DNA from: Labia minor
Lineage: Eukaryota > Arthropoda > Insecta > Dermaptera > Spongiphoridae
Reading direction: 5' to 3'
Assembly (NCBI GenBank): GCA_963082975.1
Contig: OY720347.1
Span: 30,397,398 to 30,461,397, forward strand
Length of the DNA stretch: 64,000 bases
The position numbers and the translations under genes are program-made. Shown here piece by piece: positions 3,521 through 36,059 of this stretch. The notes below the pieces were generated by a model. It saw nothing but the letters and a program-made list of their open reading frames with translations. It had not been told where the DNA came from and ran no database searches. Numbering within the stretch: position 1 is the stretch's first letter; the number at the start of each line of letters is the position of its first letter.

Positions 3521-3601
3521 TCTATCTAGCTATACCTGTGGCTCTAAGGTAATCGAAAACTCTTGGAAGCAGAAGCCACATTCCTCCAAAAACCTCTCTT
3601 A

Positions 3602-3851
3602 TAGTCTGGGAGCTCAGAGCATCCAGGGGAGGTAAGAGTTGGTGCATGAGCCGACCCCCACTGTCGGCCAAGCAGTTCCCGCGCTTGCCCCCACCATTCC
3701 AACAAAACCTCACTGCGCAACTTTGTTGCGCATAATAAATTTTTTATATTTCAGTTTGAGAGAGTGATGGAGGAGAAATCACTCTAGGAGGGGGTACCCC
3801 CGCCTCTCCTGGCTGCCACCCCTCACGCACCAACTCCTAGCTCCCGGACTA
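3602..3851. mobile_element. Foldback (MITE-like) element with TAGTC termini
   Basis: The ends are imperfect inverted repeats: TAGTCTGGGAGCT at 3602-3614 and AGCTCCCGGACTA at 3839-3851. The symmetry extends inward through AGAGTTGGTGCATGAG on the left and CTCACGCACCAACTCCT on the right. A TA flanks both sides. The interior is GC-rich compared with its surroundings and has no ORF with recognisable content. The superfamily is not assigned. Confidence 0.6.
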
Positions 3852-3937
3852 TAGTCACATCCATCCAATTCCTATTTTCTCCCATCTCCCTCTAGTGACT
3901 AAATAGATTATAAATAGAAAATAGAATACTATTAATC

Positions 3938-4029
3938 TTAACACACTTTAAGCGAGCGCTCTCAGGAATGTAACTTGATTGCGTAGCTTTCGACGGGTAC
4001 TAGTACCCGCCCCGCTTAAAGTGTGTTAA
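3938..4029. mobile_element. Short TTAA-flanked MITE (piggyBac-like), copy 1
   Basis: TTAA is present on both sides (3938-3941 and 4026-4029). The termini are perfect inverted repeats, CACACTTTAAGCG and CGCTTAAAGTGTG in outline. An internal palindrome GGGTACTAGTACCC sits beside CGCCCCGC, the same motif as in the larger element at 50981-51180. TTAA target choice points to the piggyBac superfamily; that is known of the family and not shown by any encoded protein here. Confidence 0.75.
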
Positions 4030-13082: not shown

Positions 13083-14843
13083 TTAATTAGAGTCACCCTT
13101 TCGAGGTCGACCTCTCTTTTTAGGAATATATCTCCTATACCAAGAGCAAGTTTGTATAGGAAATGACAATTGTTGAAGATTTTTATCATTGCAATTCTTA
13201 TTTTTTAATTGCTTAGATTCGATTCTTTCATTTATAAATTTCAAATTATTTGCGAATCTCTTTAGATAAGGGGTGATTTCTGGGACGAAGTTGTCATTGT
13301 AAATCACCTGTCCATTTATGTGCTCACCAAAAGGTGTAGGCTCTCCCCCTGCAGTAAAGATATTATTGCATTCGTTCAATAATGGATTCGATTTCTGCTT
13401 TTGGGAGACGTTTAACATTTTGTTAGTAATTAAAATATTCGATAAATAATGAATTTTGTGAGGTTCAGAGGCGATAAGTGGTTCCTCTTTCTCAAAGGGG
13501 TATTTTAATTTCATTCCATTATTAAAATACCACTGGTTAGAGCAAAGATCAATAATTAATCTTGCCTGTTTTAAAAAATCATTTCCCAATAAGGTTCTGG
13601 GGATTTTTTGATTTTGAAAAAACATCAGCCTGGTGGGCACTATTTTATTTTTAATATTTATAGGTAATTCAATTAAATCTACTTGATGCTCTTGGCTAGA
13701 GCCATCAGCTAAACTAATAGTTATTGATTTATTATAAAATGTAACATTTTTATTTTTTAAAATATTATATAATTTTTCACTCCCTATGGAATGAGAGGCA
13801 CCAGAGTCAGCACATGCCGTACCCGTGGCATCGCCTATTTGAATGGGGAGGAGAGGGAGAAATCCTTTTTGTTCATTTGAAGATATTTTGATAGTATTAC
13901 TAAAATTAAAAGTAGGATCTACTTTATTAGTTTTTAATTGGGGATTGCAATCAGTGCATTTGGGCTTAATAGTACCTATTTTCCCACATCCATAACATTT
14001 TTTTACATTTTTAACAGGTTTCTCCATAGAAACGGTATCAGTGCCACGGGGGGCTACTTTATTTACAATTTTGCCATCCGTATTTCGGAGGTTGTCATAA
14101 TTTTCAAGTTTTTTTATTAATTCAAGAGGCTTATTTAATGTTTCCCATTCATCTAAAAAGTGCTCACGACATTGTGATGACACGTGAGTTTTTAATTGAT
14201 TTGTAATAATTAAATCCTTTAATGCCTCGAAGTTATTGATATTCAATTCCTTTATCCATGATTCAAAATGAACCAATAAGCTATGATAGAAATCAGTCCA
14301 CGTGTGAGTGGGACATTTTTTACTGTTGTAAAATAATTGACGCATCTTTTCTTTAGTGATTTTAAATCTTTGCATCAAAAGGGTTTTAATATAATTAAAA
14401 TCCATTAAATTTTTATCCGATTCTCTATATAACAACCTTACTAGGTCTAAAGGGAGGGTTGTAGATAAATAAGATACCCAATTTTCTTGAGGTATTTTAA
14501 AAAAATTCATCTGTCTTTCAAAGACCATTAAGTATGAATTAATATCATCATTTTTATTAAGTTTTGGGAGGCGATTGGCTAAATCTATTTGGGGAAAGGG
14601 GGCTCCTACAGGTGGAGGGTTGTGATGAGGTGAGTTAAGTCTAATTTTTTCTAACTCTAGCCTTTCAACTCTCTGTTCTACAATAGAATTGAGGATACCC
14701 TGAGCTATCTCATGATCAAAATCATCATGTGCTAATAAAGCATCTTTAATTTGAATAATTTTCATTGAATTATTAATTTCAATGCCCAATTCATCAGCCA
14801 AAACTATTAAATCCTCCTTACGTGCTCTAGTGAGGAAAGCCAT
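13083..14843 (-). CDS. Gag-retropepsin polyprotein fused to out-of-order pol scraps
   Basis: 586 residues, starting at an ATG soon after the leader. Residues 1-60 are a charged helical N-terminus (RKEDLIVLADELGI) typical of arthropod Ty3-type Gag. Residues 90-250 resemble the SCAN-like capsid region (RLPKLNKNDDINSYLMVFER onward). The zinc knuckle at 283-296 is CYGCGKIGTIKPKC, with Thr where the CCHC box normally has His. The retropepsin has the active site DSGAS at 346-350 and the downstream motif RTLLGNDFL at 416-424. Residues 486-510 (IFTAGGEPTPFGEHING) look like the stretch just before RT. They are followed by an integrase C-terminal-like piece (521-550), an RT-thumb-like motif CSWYRRYIP (566-574), and a basic AT-hook-like end KKRGRPRK. 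RT, RNase H and integrase catalytic cores are missing. The order of the scraps suggests rearrangement; family identity is clear, and the fine matching of the scraps is inference. Confidence 0.88.
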   Translation of the reverse strand: MAFLTRARKEDLIVLADELGIEINNSMKIIQIKDALLAHDDFDHEIAQGILNSIVEQRVERLELEKIRLNSPHHNPPPVGAPFPQIDLANRLPKLNKNDDINSYLMVFERQMNFFKIPQENWVSYLSTTLPLDLVRLLYRESDKNLMDFNYIKTLLMQRFKITKEKMRQLFYNSKKCPTHTWTDFYHSLLVHFESWIKELNINNFEALKDLIITNQLKTHVSSQCREHFLDEWETLNKPLELIKKLENYDNLRNTDGKIVNKVAPRGTDTVSMEKPVKNVKKCYGCGKIGTIKPKCTDCNPQLKTNKVDPTFNFSNTIKISSNEQKGFLPLLPIQIGDATGTACADSGASHSIGSEKLYNILKNKNVTFYNKSITISLADGSSQEHQVDLIELPINIKNKIVPTRLMFFQNQKIPRTLLGNDFLKQARLIIDLCSNQWYFNNGMKLKYPFEKEEPLIASEPHKIHYLSNILITNKMLNVSQKQKSNPLLNECNNIFTAGGEPTPFGEHINGQVIYNDNFVPEITPYLKRFANNLKFINERIESKQLKNKNCNDKNLQQLSFPIQTCSWYRRYIPKKRGRPRKGDSN

Positions 14844-15289
14844 TTCTTAACAATAAATTATATACCACAATATACTACTAATTATAATAATTAATTAATT
14901 GTATGTAAAAAAACTATAATATAAAAATAAAAATATATAAATTGAATATTAAATTAAATAAATCCTAATAACTAAATAATAAATAAATACAATGAAAGTA
15001 AAAATAAAAAATAATAATAATAATAATACAATGTCAATGTAACTGAGAAAGAGAGAAAAAAAAATTCAATTCTCAAACAAAGTATAAATAATAGAAAGGA
15101 AAAAAAGTTTGTTTTTTTTTTTGAAAATAAAAAAAAATCGTAGGTTTTAAAACCAAAAGAAAAAAAAATATATATAAATGTACTTAAGTGTGGTTGTTCC
15201 TTAGGGCGAGTGTCACCATATGGTTGATTAATATTCACAAATTATTTGCACTAATATCACTTATTGCCTTCACAGGGGTGGGGAAAACA

Positions 15290-30525: not shown

Positions 30526-33088
30526 TTATCGAACTAATAATGTCAATGTTAAAGTAAATTGAATATATATATATATATAATCTCAAATAACTAATGATAA
30601 ACTAAATCATTTTTGTTTGGAAATTTGAACCACATGATAAACATAAAAGACAGAGAAGAGATTTATAATAATAACTTTTTAGCTTCAAAAAAATAATTCA
30701 AGATCTTTAAAAATAAAAAATTAATTTGATTAATTTATTCAATTATATTGTATTTTAGTTTAAAATTGACTTTAAAAATATAATTTTTAGATCTTAAAAA
30801 TCTTTTCAAAGAGATTAGATCTTGAGCAAATGAAAGTTGATACTTTCCGGGTATTAAAAATCGTTTTAAATTAAATAAAGGTATCTTTTTAGTATTTAAT
30901 ATTAATTTTTATGATTAAATTTTCATTAATCATAAATAATTTAATTATATAGTGTATATACAATATAATTAATATAGAGTATAATGGTTCATAGATGAAA
31001 TATATAAGATAATCCAATCATTCCTTTAATAAAAACTTATATAAATATAAACTTAAATGAGTCCAAACTGATTTACTTTTTTGAAATTATTAATAATTAC
31101 CAATTTATGATTAGATTAGTTGATATCTTTGAAAATTGGTTTTTATTTATCCAGGAGGGCATAAATAAACGATGATTACGTTGAGAAGTCAGAACATATT
31201 ATGCGGCAGAGAGAGTAATCCAGGGAATGCGGAGTACCACATGCCTCTTAACTGGATAATAATCCTCCTTAGAAATATTCTATATAGAACGTTCACTAAT
31301 GGTTTGTAACTTAATTGAATCACCAACATGAAAAAGCCGAGTAGAAAACATATATAATCCTATGAAAGCACTTAAAGCTTTTTACAAAATGTCTCGCAGA
31401 ATATTTACTTAACTAAAGGAAAAATGTCATTACTAGATGAAAATAATTTCATAATAATCATATAGGAAATGTTTTCGAAAATAAATAAAGTTGGATTCAA
31501 CTAATCAAGATTTTTTAATAGTATTCAAAATTATATAAAAAGAATAGTGTTAGTTGACGTGTGTTTATTGATTTTGTTTAGAGCTAAAGCAGGGATGAGC
31601 AAATAATTTTATCAATGGACCAAACGAATGTTCAACATTTCTTAAGGGGCCACAGATAAATGAAACTCCTAATAAATTATAAAAATCTTAAATATTTAAT
31701 TAACAATACACCATGTCTCTTTCAAGGTTTCAAAAAATTGTTTTATTATTAAAATATATATATTGTTGGAAGTGAAAGTTGTGCCCGTAAGTTTGTATAT
31801 TTGTTGTATATAAACCGTTTTTATGAAATATATAGGCTTTTATTTAATTTATTTTATCTTCCTGTTGCTCTCAAAAAATTACCGAACCAATCCCCTCCAC
31901 ATTATTTATCTTAACAAGTGCTAGTAAGTAATCAAGTGGTCCGCGAAAAGTTTAGAGCACAGAGCATCCGTACCGTTTAGAGTACTAATAAAAGTGAAAA
32001 GAAAATTTACCTATACAAAAAATTATATTATTAATATTTTTATTAAATTAAATTAAAGAAACAATTTCTTAAAACTTGTTGTTAGTTGATTTTTAATGAG
32101 GAATGTATCAAAATATTTAGTTAAAATAAAATTCCTTTAAAGAGGAAGGAATGTAAAGTAGGGTCTGATTCTTCTCAATATGCAAGCATTTTGAACATGA
32201 ATGAAATGAAATGTTGAATCTTGACACATTTTTATTTCAATTTTTTAACTTTAATAATATAAATAAGATTTGTGAATACGAATCTAAGAAACATTAAAAT
32301 TAGTCTACTAAAGATAAGAACAAATCACATTAGTTTAAGCAACAAATATTTGCATACAATACTTTTGTGTTCTCACAATATCTCCTATTTAAATAATATG
32401 AAAAGTTTTATTCTTTAAGTTGACCTTTAATTAAATTTTAATTTTTGTTTACTTGAAAAGGTTTATTGACTTTATTTAAATCATATATAAGTATATTTAT
32501 AGGATTGTTAGGATTAATATTTATTTCTTGGTTATGTATATAATTCGAATAATGTCGATGTTTGAGCAGGTAAGGGCACTTGTAATATCGACATTAATTT
32601 TTCTTATTAATGCGCGATCGACCAGGTTTTGATCGACAGTAAGACAGTGGTTAATAAATTTTTTTTAATTTATTTTACCTATAATATGGAAAGAAAAAAA
32701 AAATCTAGGGAAAAAAAGATAAAAGGTTTCACATGATATTTTATTTGGATTACTAAAGTCTAATTATATCAATATAGACTAAATTTTTTTTTTATATTAG
32801 CTATAAAACTTTTTATGCACTTGTTTAACTCTCTCTTTTCAAAAAAAACAACAAATAAAAAAAAAATGTTTGTCAAACACTTTAATTTTTTTTCCATGTC
32901 AATAATTTTTATCGGAAAGATCAAGTGTACTTTTAACTTTTCAAGCATATCTACTCATCTAGATAGGTAAAAAATCACTCATTTACTTTATAAACACTAC
33001 ATTTCTCAGGCGTCCTATAATCAGGGACTCCTATAATTTCATTAATTAATTAATTCATTCATTATTAATAATATTTATTTATTATATA
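30526..33088. other. AT-rich spacer with possible hAT and Copia-like end fragments
   Basis: A sequence CAGGGATGAGCAAATAA at about 31610 resembles an hAT terminus and is followed by a GGGGCCACA motif near 31655; no partner terminus is found. Near 31763, TGTTGGAAGTGAAAGTTGTG resembles a Copia-type LTR start, again without a partner. Otherwise AT-rich with no gene. Confidence 0.35.
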
Positions 33089-33581
33089 TGTAGGGAATTT
33101 CGTTGTCTAGGGGTTGTTTAGCAAAAAATATCTGTTTTGTTTAAATGGTTGCAAAAATATCGTTTTATTGAATAAAGATGAACAAGATAAAAACAGTGTA
33201 AAAATAAATGAAATCGTAACTTCTTCGTTTCTTGAATACTTCTGGCGATGTACAAAAGACTGAATAAACTCTTAACTGTAAACTGTCTATAAAAACTAAA
33301 CTGGAATCGTGCCGGTGTCCCTTTTAAAAGGAAGTCCAAACAGCTGGAACTCGGTTGCTATTGGTCGGTGGCGTGGAGTGGGAGAATGGCGGCGACGGTG
33401 ATGGTAGCTCATGGTGGGGAGGCGGCGACGGCGTCTGGGGCGCTCGCTGCTTGGAGCGGCGTTGAGAGGAAGCACCAACTCCGATGATATTGTGGTTGAG
33501 AATGGCCGACTTTGAGGCAGTAAGATGCGCCAGGCTTTTGATGATTCGGACGGTGATGAGCCAAAAGGCTCCATTCCCACA
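33089..33581 (-). repeat. 3' LTR of the DEK/NASP-like element
   Basis: Same length as 35355-35847 with no difference noticed. On the minus strand it holds the last 95 codons of the ORF. An Inr-like TCAGTC (33258-33263) lies about 30 bases after a TATA-like A/T block (33288-33295). AATAAA follows at 33164-33169, a fitting poly(A) signal. The promoter calls are inference. Confidence 0.88.
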
Positions 33582-34996
33582 TTCGGCCGTCCTGCGATGT
33601 ATTCGGCCTCGAATACGTTAATCTTCTTTTCCTTATCTCTCCACTTCGCCTTCGTTTTTCGATATTTATCGATTTTTTTCTTCACGTAAAATAGTATATC
33701 TTGTGATTTGGATAAATCATTTATGCCTGTTTCTAAATTTAAATCCACATTAAAATCTTCATTTTCTTTATTTAAAACTCTATCTTCAGTTTCAACTTTA
33801 CTTGCAGTTTGTGTTTTATCATTATCGTTAGAACTTTCTTCTTTAATTTCGTCTAATTTTAAAAAAGCATTTTCTAACTTTAATTTTGTTTCTTTATTTC
33901 CTTCATTTGCTTGTTTTTCATAAATCACTTTTGCCAATTTTAAAACTTTCCAGGCGAATTTTAAATTAGTAACGTCATCTTCTTCACTGTCTTTCTCACC
34001 ATCTTCACTTTCAGGCATTGTTTCATCAAGATAAAAAATTTTATCATTGGGATCAATCTCTTCTTCACGAATTGTTTTATTTCGATCTTCTGAAGTGCTT
34101 TCATCCTTATCAACTTCCATTGATTCATCGTCATTTACTTTATCCTCTTCATTAACTTCACTTTCGGTCTTTTTTTCATTATCAGTCGTTAGAGATTCTT
34201 TATCTTCATTCTTTTCTTCTTTGACTTCCTGTTTTTCAGTCTCTCCTTTTTTATTAGATTCTTTCTTTTCAGTCTCTTCTTTTTTATCAGTCCCTTCTAT
34301 TTTCTCCGATTCTTTCTTTTGAGTTTTTTCTTTTTTATTAGATTCTTTCTTTTCAGTCTCTTCTTTTTTATCAGATTCTTTCTTATCAGTCTCTTCTATT
34401 TTCTCCGATTCTTTCTTTTGAGTTTTTTCTTTTTTATTAGATTCTTTCTTTTCAGTCTCTTCTTTTTTCTTAGATTCTTTCTTTTCAGTCTCTTCTTTTT
34501 TATTAGATTCTTTCTTTTCAGTCTCTTCTTTTTTATCAGATTCTTTCTTTCCAGTCTCTTCTTTTTTATCAGATTCTTTCTTATCAGTCTCTTCTTTTTT
34601 ATTAGATTCTTTCTTTTCAGTCTCTTCTTTCTTATCAGTCTCTTCTTTCTTATCAGTCTCTTCTTTTTCTTCTTCTTCATCATCTTCGTCCAGTGTACAT
34701 AACCAAGATAGAATGTTACCTCTGATTAGTTCGTCGCTGTCTTGCTCAGGAAGATTGAGTATATTAGATGTTCGACGTAGTTGCTTACTGGTAAGTTTTT
34801 CCTTTAATTCTTCATTTTTCTTTTCGTATTCCTCAGAACCTTCAACAAAGTTGAACCCTTCAAAGTTGAGTAGGGTTTTTCTACTGAGGCGGCATGTTGC
34901 GTCACCCGTTATTATCGTTTTTAATCCTTTCAATTCATATGGTTTGGCCTCAATGATGTTTTTTGCGATTTTTGGAAAAAAAAACAAATTCAACAT
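33296..34996 (-). CDS. Chimeric DEK-like / Glu-Lys repeat / NASP-like protein inside an LTR element
   Basis: 566 residues. Residues 22-100 resemble the pseudo-SAP/SAP module of DEK, a chromatin architectural protein and histone chaperone. Key residues are NFEGFNFVEGSEEYEKK (44-60) and the helical stretch LTSKQLRRTSNILNL..ELIRGNILSWL. Residues 103-260 are an acidic-basic tract built of an 11-residue repeat of the SNKKEETEKKE type. Residues 261-340 are acidic. Residues 341-390 (DVTNLKFAWKVLKLAKVIYEKQ onward) resemble the SHNi-TPR segment of NASP, the H3/H4 chaperone. Residues 434-452 may match the helix near the end of the NASP TPR domain. Residues 472-566 are encoded by the LTR and rich in Arg and Ser/Pro. 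The matches are from memory of the families, not a search. The DEK C-terminal domain and most NASP TPRs are missing. No introns interrupt the frame, as expected if copied from RNA. Confidence 0.62.
   Translation of the reverse strand: MLNLFFFPKIAKNIIEAKPYELKGLKTIITGDATCRLSRKTLLNFEGFNFVEGSEEYEKKNEELKEKLTSKQLRRTSNILNLPEQDSDELIRGNILSWLCTLDEDDEEEEKEETDKKEETDKKEETEKKESNKKEETDKKESDKKEETGKKESDKKEETEKKESNKKEETEKKESKKKEETEKKESNKKEKTQKKESEKIEETDKKESDKKEETEKKESNKKEKTQKKESEKIEGTDKKEETEKKESNKKGETEKQEVKEEKNEDKESLTTDNEKKTESEVNEEDKVNDDESMEVDKDESTSEDRNKTIREEEIDPNDKIFYLDETMPESEDGEKDSEEDDVTNLKFAWKVLKLAKVIYEKQANEGNKETKLKLENAFLKLDEIKEESSNDNDKTQTASKVETEDRVLNKENEDFNVDLNLETGINDLSKSQDILFYVKKKIDKYRKTKAKWRDKEKKINVFEAEYIAGRPNVGMEPFGSSPSESSKAWRILLPQSRPFSTTISSELVLPLNAAPSSERPRRRRRLPTMSYHHRRRHSPTPRHRPIATEFQLFGLPFKRDTGTIPV
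34225..34668 (-). repeat. 33-bp coding minisatellite (11-codon Glu/Lys repeat)
   Basis: About a dozen units of 33 bases, with some 15- and 18-base partial units, encode S(N/D)KKEETEKKE variants. Because the unit is a multiple of three, copy-number change keeps the frame. The same periodicity opens long frames on the other strand and in a second minus frame; these are shadows. Confidence 0.85.
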
Positions 34997-35059
34997 CTTA
35001 ATATATTTTTATTTTTTTAATCTTTACTGTATTAAATCTTGTATTTTCTTTCTTGCTGA

Positions 35060-35287
35060 TTATTCACAAAAAAATCTTGAAAGTGAATAAGTTTTCAATC
35101 TTAAATCTTGTATCTTTTCCTTGACAATTATTCACAAAAATCTTGAGAGTAAATAAATCTTCAATCTTGAATCTTGTATCTTTTCTTTAGAATTATTCAC
35201 AAAAATCTTGAAAGTGAATAAGACTTGAATCTTGAATCGTGTATCTTTTCTTGAAGTTTATTCACATAAAATCTTGAGAGTGAATAA
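35060..35287 (-). repeat. Four tandem hairpin repeats in the retroelement leader
   Basis: Units of about 65 bases each contain TTATTCAC, about 13 bases, then GTGAATAA or a one-base variant, an 8-bp stem. Between hairpins is TCTTGAATCTTGTATCTTTTC. The units lie between the PBS and the ORF start, where packaging or dimerisation signals sit in LTR elements; any such role is inference. Confidence 0.8.
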
Positions 35288-35354
35288 GTCTAGGAATCTT
35301 CTTTTGCCCGAACGATAAACGAGTTGTTTTCAATCACGGACTGAGCCTCCAATT

Positions 35355-35847
35355 TGTAGGGAATTTCGTTGTCTAGGGGTTGTTTAGCAAAAAATATCTG
35401 TTTTGTTTAAATGGTTGCAAAAATATCGTTTTATTGAATAAAGATGAACAAGATAAAAACAGTGTAAAAATAAATGAAATCGTAACTTCTTCGTTTCTTG
35501 AATACTTCTGGCGATGTACAAAAGACTGAATAAACTCTTAACTGTAAACTGTCTATAAAAACTAAACTGGAATCGTGCCGGTGTCCCTTTTAAAAGGAAG
35601 TCCAAACAGCTGGAACTCGGTTGCTATTGGTCGGTGGCGTGGAGTGGGAGAATGGCGGCGACGGTGATGGTAGCTCATGGTGGGGAGGCGGCGACGGCGT
35701 CTGGGGCGCTCGCTGCTTGGAGCGGCGTTGAGAGGAAGCACCAACTCCGATGATATTGTGGTTGAGAATGGCCGACTTTGAGGCAGTAAGATGCGCCAGG
35801 CTTTTGATGATTCGGACGGTGATGAGCCAAAAGGCTCCATTCCCACA
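35355..35847 (-). repeat. 5' LTR of the DEK/NASP-like element
   Basis: Same as 33089-33581. Inr-like TCAGTC lies at 35524-35529 and the TATA-like block near 35554. The open frame at 35562-35936 (minus) is an accident of the LTR-encoded tail joined to flanking DNA. Confidence 0.88.
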
Positions 35848-36059
35848 TATATATATCTATAGGAATTATTTTTATTAAGAATAAATAAATAAATACCTAC
35901 ATTTTTAAAAAATAATAAGTATAAACAAATTTTCATATAATAGAATTGTTTTATATAAAAACATGAGGCTCATTGAAGGATTATTTGTGATTCTCATTTT
36001 TGAGATTTATTTGAGTTCCTTATTCATTTTTGGATTATTATCTTTTAAAAAATAATTAA

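Follow-up and report, generated by a model that had tools for sequence, protein, structure and literature searches.

Anatomy of the element and its open reading frame

The window analyzed here, a stretch of 64,000 nucleotides from the 604-Mb Labia minor genome (71 contigs), has a G+C content of 20–33% per 2-kb bin and contains a 2.76-kb retroelement at positions 33089–35847, with its coding strand on the minus strand. Two long terminal repeats (LTRs), identical at 493 of 493 positions, begin with TG and end with CA; the element is flanked by a target-site duplication (TSD) of the sequence TATA and carries a single open reading frame (ORF) of 566 residues, P0001. The original prediction, made from the letters alone, had described matching 493-bp LTRs around a single frame with no gag or pol. 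The LTRs, the frame and the lack of pol were confirmed; the lack of gag applies only in part, since the DEK-like start of P0001 is a Gag N-terminus. On the evidence below it is very probable that the element, non-autonomous and active until recently, belongs to a Ty3/Gypsy-type clade with a DEK-like Gag start, and that its ORF combines this start with a fragment taken from the host gene NASP.

In order, P0001 consists of the DEK-like Gag start, K/E repeats, the NASP piece, a piece of a second host gene, an unassigned piece and a tail of ~94 residues encoded by the 3' LTR (Table 1). K/E-rich repeats occupy much of the frame. Compared with Pfam in its full length, the ORF matched no family up to E=1, and an Rfam scan of the 64-kb window gave 0 matches. 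A search with the telomere pattern (TTAGG)6 likewise had 0 matches. Neither a reverse transcriptase (RT) nor an integrase (IN) was found among the ORFs of the element or by Pfam; lacking both of its own, the window copy is non-autonomous.

Residues 1–110 of P0001, searched as a single sequence against the PDB, matched DEK (2jx3) with E=3e-4, and a profile of ten element N-termini matched the same entry with E=8.5e-16 (profile 3–100 against chain 10–108, 98 positions). By this profile match the window ORF contains the N-terminal SAP/SAF-box domain of DEK, in agreement with the predicted similarity; no DEK_C domain was found in it by Pfam. DEK_C occurs at four places in the genome (one below the cut-off), none of them among the scored places of the DEK piece. 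For that piece, 150 of 261 candidates were scored (149 of the 150 rows entered the copy classification), and DEK copy numbers are therefore lower bounds. The host DEK gene was located via its DEK_C domain, and its N-terminal exon is 33% identical to the window domain over 55 residues. The first 380 residues of 13 ORFs form nine Gag groups with 29–51% identity between groups (L048 aligns over 65–221 residues only). The DEK-like start opens Gag in nine groups, and intact frames with the order DEK-Gag-protease (PR)-RT-RNase H (RH)-IN were found in two (L034 and L038). Judged from these comparisons, the DEK-like start of the window ORF is an old Gag N-terminus and not a fresh capture alongside NASP. 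Its presence in nine groups suggests an ancient entry of a host chromatin-protein domain into the structural gene of a retroelement. Three other loci (L057, L058 and L060), copies from a second Gag group, contain NASP-derived cargo but no DEK-like start, so that this domain is not retained in every case.

That the DEK and NASP matches share one ORF would fit the proposal of the original prediction, in which a single event captured both from two host mRNAs. Such a joint capture is highly improbable given the nine Gag groups, the two intact Gag-Pol frames and the low identity to the host DEK exon, and it is already contradicted by L034 and by the DEK-Gag-PR-NASP intermediates, such as L021, described below. 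Thus, of the two proposed host genes, NASP stands and DEK as its companion does not; likewise, the counter-possibility named in the prediction, that both segments belong to a normal retroelement Gag, holds for DEK but not for NASP.

The C-terminal part of P0001 matched human NASP in the PDB (7v1m, E=8.6e-6). A genome search with the SHNi-TPR found one place only (1 match from 2 candidates), which is the host NASP gene, a single uninterrupted frame of 707 residues. P0001 is 65% identical to it over 157 residues (E 5.5e-48), with 82.9% DNA identity over 694 columns. The alignment is convincing as far as the motif LKLGEI, at about the SHNi-TPR start in the host protein, so that the piece comprises the acidic K/E tract and the helix preceding the SHNi-TPR, and the TPR array is missing. 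The predicted NASP match is therefore correct, whereas its SHNi-TPR part is not: no SHNi-TPR (PF10516) was found in P0001 by Pfam. The sequence agreement indicates that the piece descends from the host NASP gene. K/E-rich repeats across much of the ORF, together with the lack of any Pfam family for the whole frame, could have produced chance or low-complexity similarities to DEK and NASP; this has almost no probability left and is already contradicted by the profile match over 98 positions and by the NASP alignment, which includes non-repetitive residues.

Table 1. Features of the element, in window coordinates.
Feature	Position	Strand	Basis
TSD TATA, 4 bp, left	33085..33088	.	sequence
3' LTR, 493 bp	33089..33581	-	repeat comparison
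3' end including LTR, common to autonomous relative L034, 94% DNA	33089..33633	-	DNA alignment
Single ORF, 566 aa (P0001)	33296..34996	-	ORF list
Unassigned piece (ILFYVKKKIDKYRKTKAKWRDK...), ~20 residues; also in L057-L060	33644..33696	-	DNA alignment
Second host gene piece (L061, C2:84.13 Mb)	33697..33855	-	82% DNA; 60% aa over 58 columns
Block derived from NASP, made up of K/E repeats (repeat family D1), conserved acidic region and pre-TPR helix	33845..34686	-	83% DNA over main match 33845-34495
DEK-like N-terminal domain, residues 1-101	34694..34996	-	89% aa identity to Gag-Pol start of L034
Most of 5' LTR, leader and DEK start, common to L034, 94% DNA	34641..35786	-	DNA alignment
Primer-binding site (PBS) TGGAGGCTCAGTCCGTGA, 3 nt inside 5' LTR	35334..35351	-	position and TGG start
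5' LTR, identical to 3' LTR	35355..35847	-	repeat comparison
TSD TATA, 4 bp, right	35848..35851	.	sequence

Autonomous relatives, intermediates and copies

L034, a relative sharing the window LTR, has an intact frame of 1391 residues with a DEK-like start, gag, zinc knuckle, protease, RT, RNase H and integrase, in the order PR-RT-RH-IN. Pfam recognized RVT_1 (8.7e-36), and RNase H, integrase and protease were also above the cut-off, with gag and zinc knuckle below it. A second intact Gag-Pol frame, L038 (1418 residues), belongs to a different Gag group. The clade can be placed among the Ty3/Gypsy-type LTR retrotransposons, an assignment by domain order and Pfam matches only. Besides the LTR and leader repeats, L034 and the window element have two blocks in common (element positions 63–1208 and 2216–2760, each 94% identical; the 5' LTR of L034 is incomplete in the compared sequence, which ends within it). 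Since L034 matches the window element at its two ends only, the middle is a captured block.

Two long-frame copies retain more of the Gag region. L021 (984 residues) consists of the DEK-like start, gag and knuckles (below the Pfam cut-off) and a protease (above it), followed by NASP, and in L052 (1116 residues) the DEK-like start and NASP are likewise separated by gag, knuckles and protease. Both are of the type DEK-Gag-PR-NASP plus second-gene piece, with RT-RH-IN replaced in frame, and the window type additionally lacks the remaining Gag and PR. This loss has its joint within GAA-rich DNA, and a match to the acidic tract of L034 persists there. In L028, the DEK start is in one frame and the Gag-PR-NASP part in another. 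Because L021 and L052 retain Gag-PR before NASP, the replacement of RT-RH-IN probably came first and the loss of Gag-PR later.

Genome-wide, the NASP piece gave 110 matches at E<=1 (119 candidates, all scored). The 74 near-full-length matches, classified by frame length, comprise 55 in open frames of 500–620 residues, 14 in frames of at least 880 residues and five others. Among the 55 short-frame copies, the window element, L055 and L056 were examined in full and 12 more at both ends; among the 14 long-frame copies, L021 and L052 were examined in full and L054 partly, along with L028. Of the LTR pairs in the family, 15 of 16 were scored: 13 are identical, two have one mismatch, and all 15 have a TSD. 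By its sequence, the window element is a young, multi-copy, recently active, non-autonomous LTR retrotransposon.

One LTR only was found at five of 20 loci (L009, L011, L014, L019 and L022). At L009, the LTR (3526–4019) is 100% identical to that of the window, with no second LTR in the 7.5 kb read, and it is probably a solo LTR. At C5:65615610–65623211, four DEK-NASP units are spaced exactly 2121 bp apart, apparently as a tandem array. Among 15 scored copies the PBS has the form TGGAGGCTCAGTCCGTGA in 12; L021 and L024 have TGGGGGCTCGTCCGGGA, which resembles tRNA-Pro, and L028 has a near variant of TGGGGGCTCGTCCGGGA.

Downstream of NASP, P0001 contains the piece of L061, so that two host genes (NASP and L061) are represented in the window element. 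The N-terminal part of L061 has a single genome match (from 2 candidates); for its identity, there was no Pfam family up to E=1 and no PDB match for the first 255 residues, and the 4 kb downstream were uninformative. The NASP and L061 donors share CGAAATT at their joint. The unassigned piece has a weak Pfam match to Tudor_3 (E=0.015) and 41 matches from 41 candidates; no host source was seen among the five examined, of which four are Gag elements (L057–L060) and the fifth, an outlier at C2:43384525 (L069), adjoins reverse-transcriptase-like remains. The NASP/second-gene joint is identical in L021, L057 and L058 and differs in L059 and L060. The Gag of L057 and L058 belongs to another group, of which L059 is 34% identical to L034; the same joint in two Gag groups argues for cassette exchange between them.

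Other host cargoes in the clade

Further loci were selected by long open frames from the scored matches of the DEK piece, so that in-frame cargo is partly a product of selection and was not used as evidence. One Gag group (L036, L044, L045 and L046), with its first 380 residues 98–99% identical, carries four different foreign stretches, which have differing start points, from the protease to the RT start, and replace most or all of pol. For the three cargoes searched (L036, L044 and L046), a donor gene was found for each, with 95.6–100% DNA identity by block.

The L036 cargo has 13 matches: nine element copies at 99–100% and four exons of one host gene, presumably a Girdin/CCDC88-like coiled coil. 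Compared with five host exons it has one mismatch in 888 nt, the intervening gt..ag introns being gone, and a sixth block is 95.8% identical. The two 553-bp LTRs of this copy are identical, and its TSD is TTTA. The L046 cargo is a TFIIS_M domain (PDB match to PHD finger protein 3, E=1e-29), which occurs at four places in the genome, two of them tandem element copies and one the likely donor, to which the cargo is 98.6% and 96.6% identical; a host intron is missing in the element. The L044 cargo has its match, in blocks of 584 nt (99.7%) and 252 nt (95.6%), in a K/D/E-rich frame located at C9:46.66 Mb, around which no Gag frame was seen. L035, from another Gag group, has an acidic cargo with 12 matches from 15 candidates, six of them near-identical in frames of 714–772 residues. 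Its donor at C1:79.176 Mb is 95.6% and 97.2% identical on the two sides of an intron of ~80 nt (G/gtaaat ... ttattag/GTG) that is absent from the element. Because host introns are missing in the cargo, the sequences of L036, L046 and L035 demonstrate capture at the RNA level, from spliced mRNA, for these three sister cargoes.

Capture with a chromatin theme was considered as a rule and not adopted, one sister cargo being the presumably Girdin/CCDC88-like coiled coil. Most of the traced cargoes are rich in K, E and D, and short identities to GAA-rich tracts could explain this equally.

Additional observations concern related structures. L074 (C6:68798600–68808599) is a tandem of the form LTR-internal-LTR-internal-LTR with PHF3-like TFIIS_M cargo, its units 99.97% identical. 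Foreign-looking stretches that replace pol were also seen in L037, L045 and L048 (coiled coil, acidic and short K-rich). L039 and L051 seem to have lost pol sequence by deletion or decay, and L043 has a short foreign-looking stretch only. The window itself contains a second pol-less, retroelement-like ORF (13083–14846, minus strand, 587 residues). It includes a stretch resembling a zinc knuckle (CYGCGK...), matches an aspartyl protease below the cut-off (Pfam E 1e-4) and has an AT-hook-like end, KKRGRPRKG.

Selection, proposed origin and known systems

Between the window element and L034, the DEK-like domain has a nonsynonymous divergence (dN) of 0.051 and a synonymous divergence (dS) of 0.193, and for the first 490 codons of L021 and L034 the values are 0.035 and 0.123. 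For the NASP piece of the window against the host gene they are 0.083 and 0.102 (dN/dS ~0.8), and the dN/dS of other copies against the host is 0.52 for L018, 0.75 for L021, 0.57 for L028, 1.01 for L052 and 0.94 for L057. Pooled between copies, pN/pS is 0.38 for DEK (13 distinct) and 0.61 for NASP (11 distinct). In 19 Gag-less copies, the counts of synonymous, nonsynonymous and stop changes are 9/18/0 for the DEK piece (18 copies), 6/12/0 for the NASP piece (16 of 18, modal length) and 5/5/0 for the tail (17 of 19); the nonsynonymous-to-synonymous ratio is 0.59 (p 0.14), 0.64 (p 0.26) and 0.27 (p 0.04) of expectation, respectively. By these values, Gag including its DEK-like start is constrained and the NASP cargo is near neutral; for the short protein, there is a weak indication of constraint. 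Since the near-neutral cargo ends at the SHNi-TPR start, a NASP-like chaperone role is unlikely. The predicted action on chromatin thus found no support in the cargo, with its dN/dS of ~0.8, its missing TPR array and a sister cargo that is a coiled coil (presumably Girdin-like).

The DEK-NASP protein could instead be functional for the element, its DEK part tethering it to chromatin and its acidic NASP part binding basic proteins and aiding the RNA or integration, so that the short form spread through its protein. Frames of 500–620 residues in 55 of the 74 near-full matches, the lack of stops in 18 DEK, 18 NASP and 19 tail pieces, the ratios below expectation in all three and the constraint on the DEK-like domain within the clade are in keeping with such a role. 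However, the copies are very young and their frames had little time for decay, the pieces were recovered by motif so that damaged ones may be missed (the DEK piece of L010 has a stop), the NASP piece is near neutral against the host and stops within the first SHNi-TPR residues, and one of three selection tests reached p 0.05. We therefore regard a functional protein as unlikely.

The reading we prefer remains that of a Gag start joined to stolen NASP. First, RT-RH-IN of a DEK-Gag-PR-pol element would have been replaced in frame by NASP and the second-gene piece; the remaining Gag and PR would then have been lost, with a joint in GAA-rich DNA, giving the window type. The capture may have proceeded by template switching, in which the reverse transcriptase would have changed at short identities to a host mRNA packaged along with the element; CGAAATT, AAAGATA and AGAG are found at three joints. 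Pairing with GAA-rich tracts of the element would account for the mostly K/E/D-rich donors. For its movement the element would rely on L034-like copies to provide proteins in trans. The window protein would be mostly a passenger, of which the DEK-like part perhaps retains a Gag-derived chromatin- or nucleic-acid-binding role.

Several points weigh against this reading. The gag-pro/NASP joint is decayed, and the Gag-loss joint is aligned on the L034 side only. The host NASP frame has no intron, so that the capture in the window is not provable as RNA-level. The short ORF was perhaps kept (0 stops against 2.7 expected, with 20 synonymous and 35 nonsynonymous changes in the three pieces), the signal of constraint reaching significance only in the tail (p 0.04). 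In a broader proposal, mRNA capture would go on in the clade at a high standing rate: host messages would be taken up by DEK-Gag particles, pol would be repeatedly swapped in frame, cassettes would move between Gag groups, and some host parts (NASP, PHF3-like TFIIS_M) would be decoys of chromatin or silencing factors that favor their carrier. We consider this decidedly doubtful.

Host genes captured by LTR elements are mostly encountered as isolated relics. The genome studied here retains an intact relative, Gag-PR-cargo intermediates, an amplified end product and the host donors. With one Gag family carrying four foreign stretches and donors found, the steps of an oncogene-style capture become countable: which RNAs, which joints, at what frequency, and what is kept. 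By title and start of abstract, no prior description of this clade was found among the open-access papers listed, which is weak evidence of absence; at the same depth, 'nasp' was absent from the listed retrotransposon-capture papers and 'sap domain' from the listed Gypsy-gag papers.

The predicted likeness to maize Bs1 is strengthened by the second host-gene piece. Bs1, an LTR element, carries segments from three genes of its host (PMC13317346). Both are LTR elements in which a chimeric ORF unites several host-gene pieces; the present case differs in its DEK-like Gag start and in the further presence in the genome of an intact relative, of intermediates, of 74 near-full NASP matches and of sisters with other cargoes. 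Crocodilian endogenous retroviruses are described as having captured KIT-ligand and nectin3 mRNAs (PMC4299795). There too, host mRNA lies in a proviral element with several copies, an element gene being lost in the nectin3 case; however, env or no domain was lost there, whereas in the present elements the host part takes the place of pol and stands in frame behind Gag or Gag-PR.

LTR-mediated retroposition in metazoans, treated by Tan et al. in 2016, is said to have yielded mostly single retrocopies. In contrast, the cassettes described here reside in amplified families, with one NASP/second-gene joint in two Gag groups. Host mRNA joined to LTR-element sequence via reverse transcription is common to both; the process is cited in PMC8232201. 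The cassettes also differ from acutely transforming retroviruses in being endogenous copies with near-neutral cargo and in that none of the traced cargoes is oncogene-like. Those viruses carry gag-oncogene fusions, in which host coding sequence replaces pol behind gag and a helper is needed.

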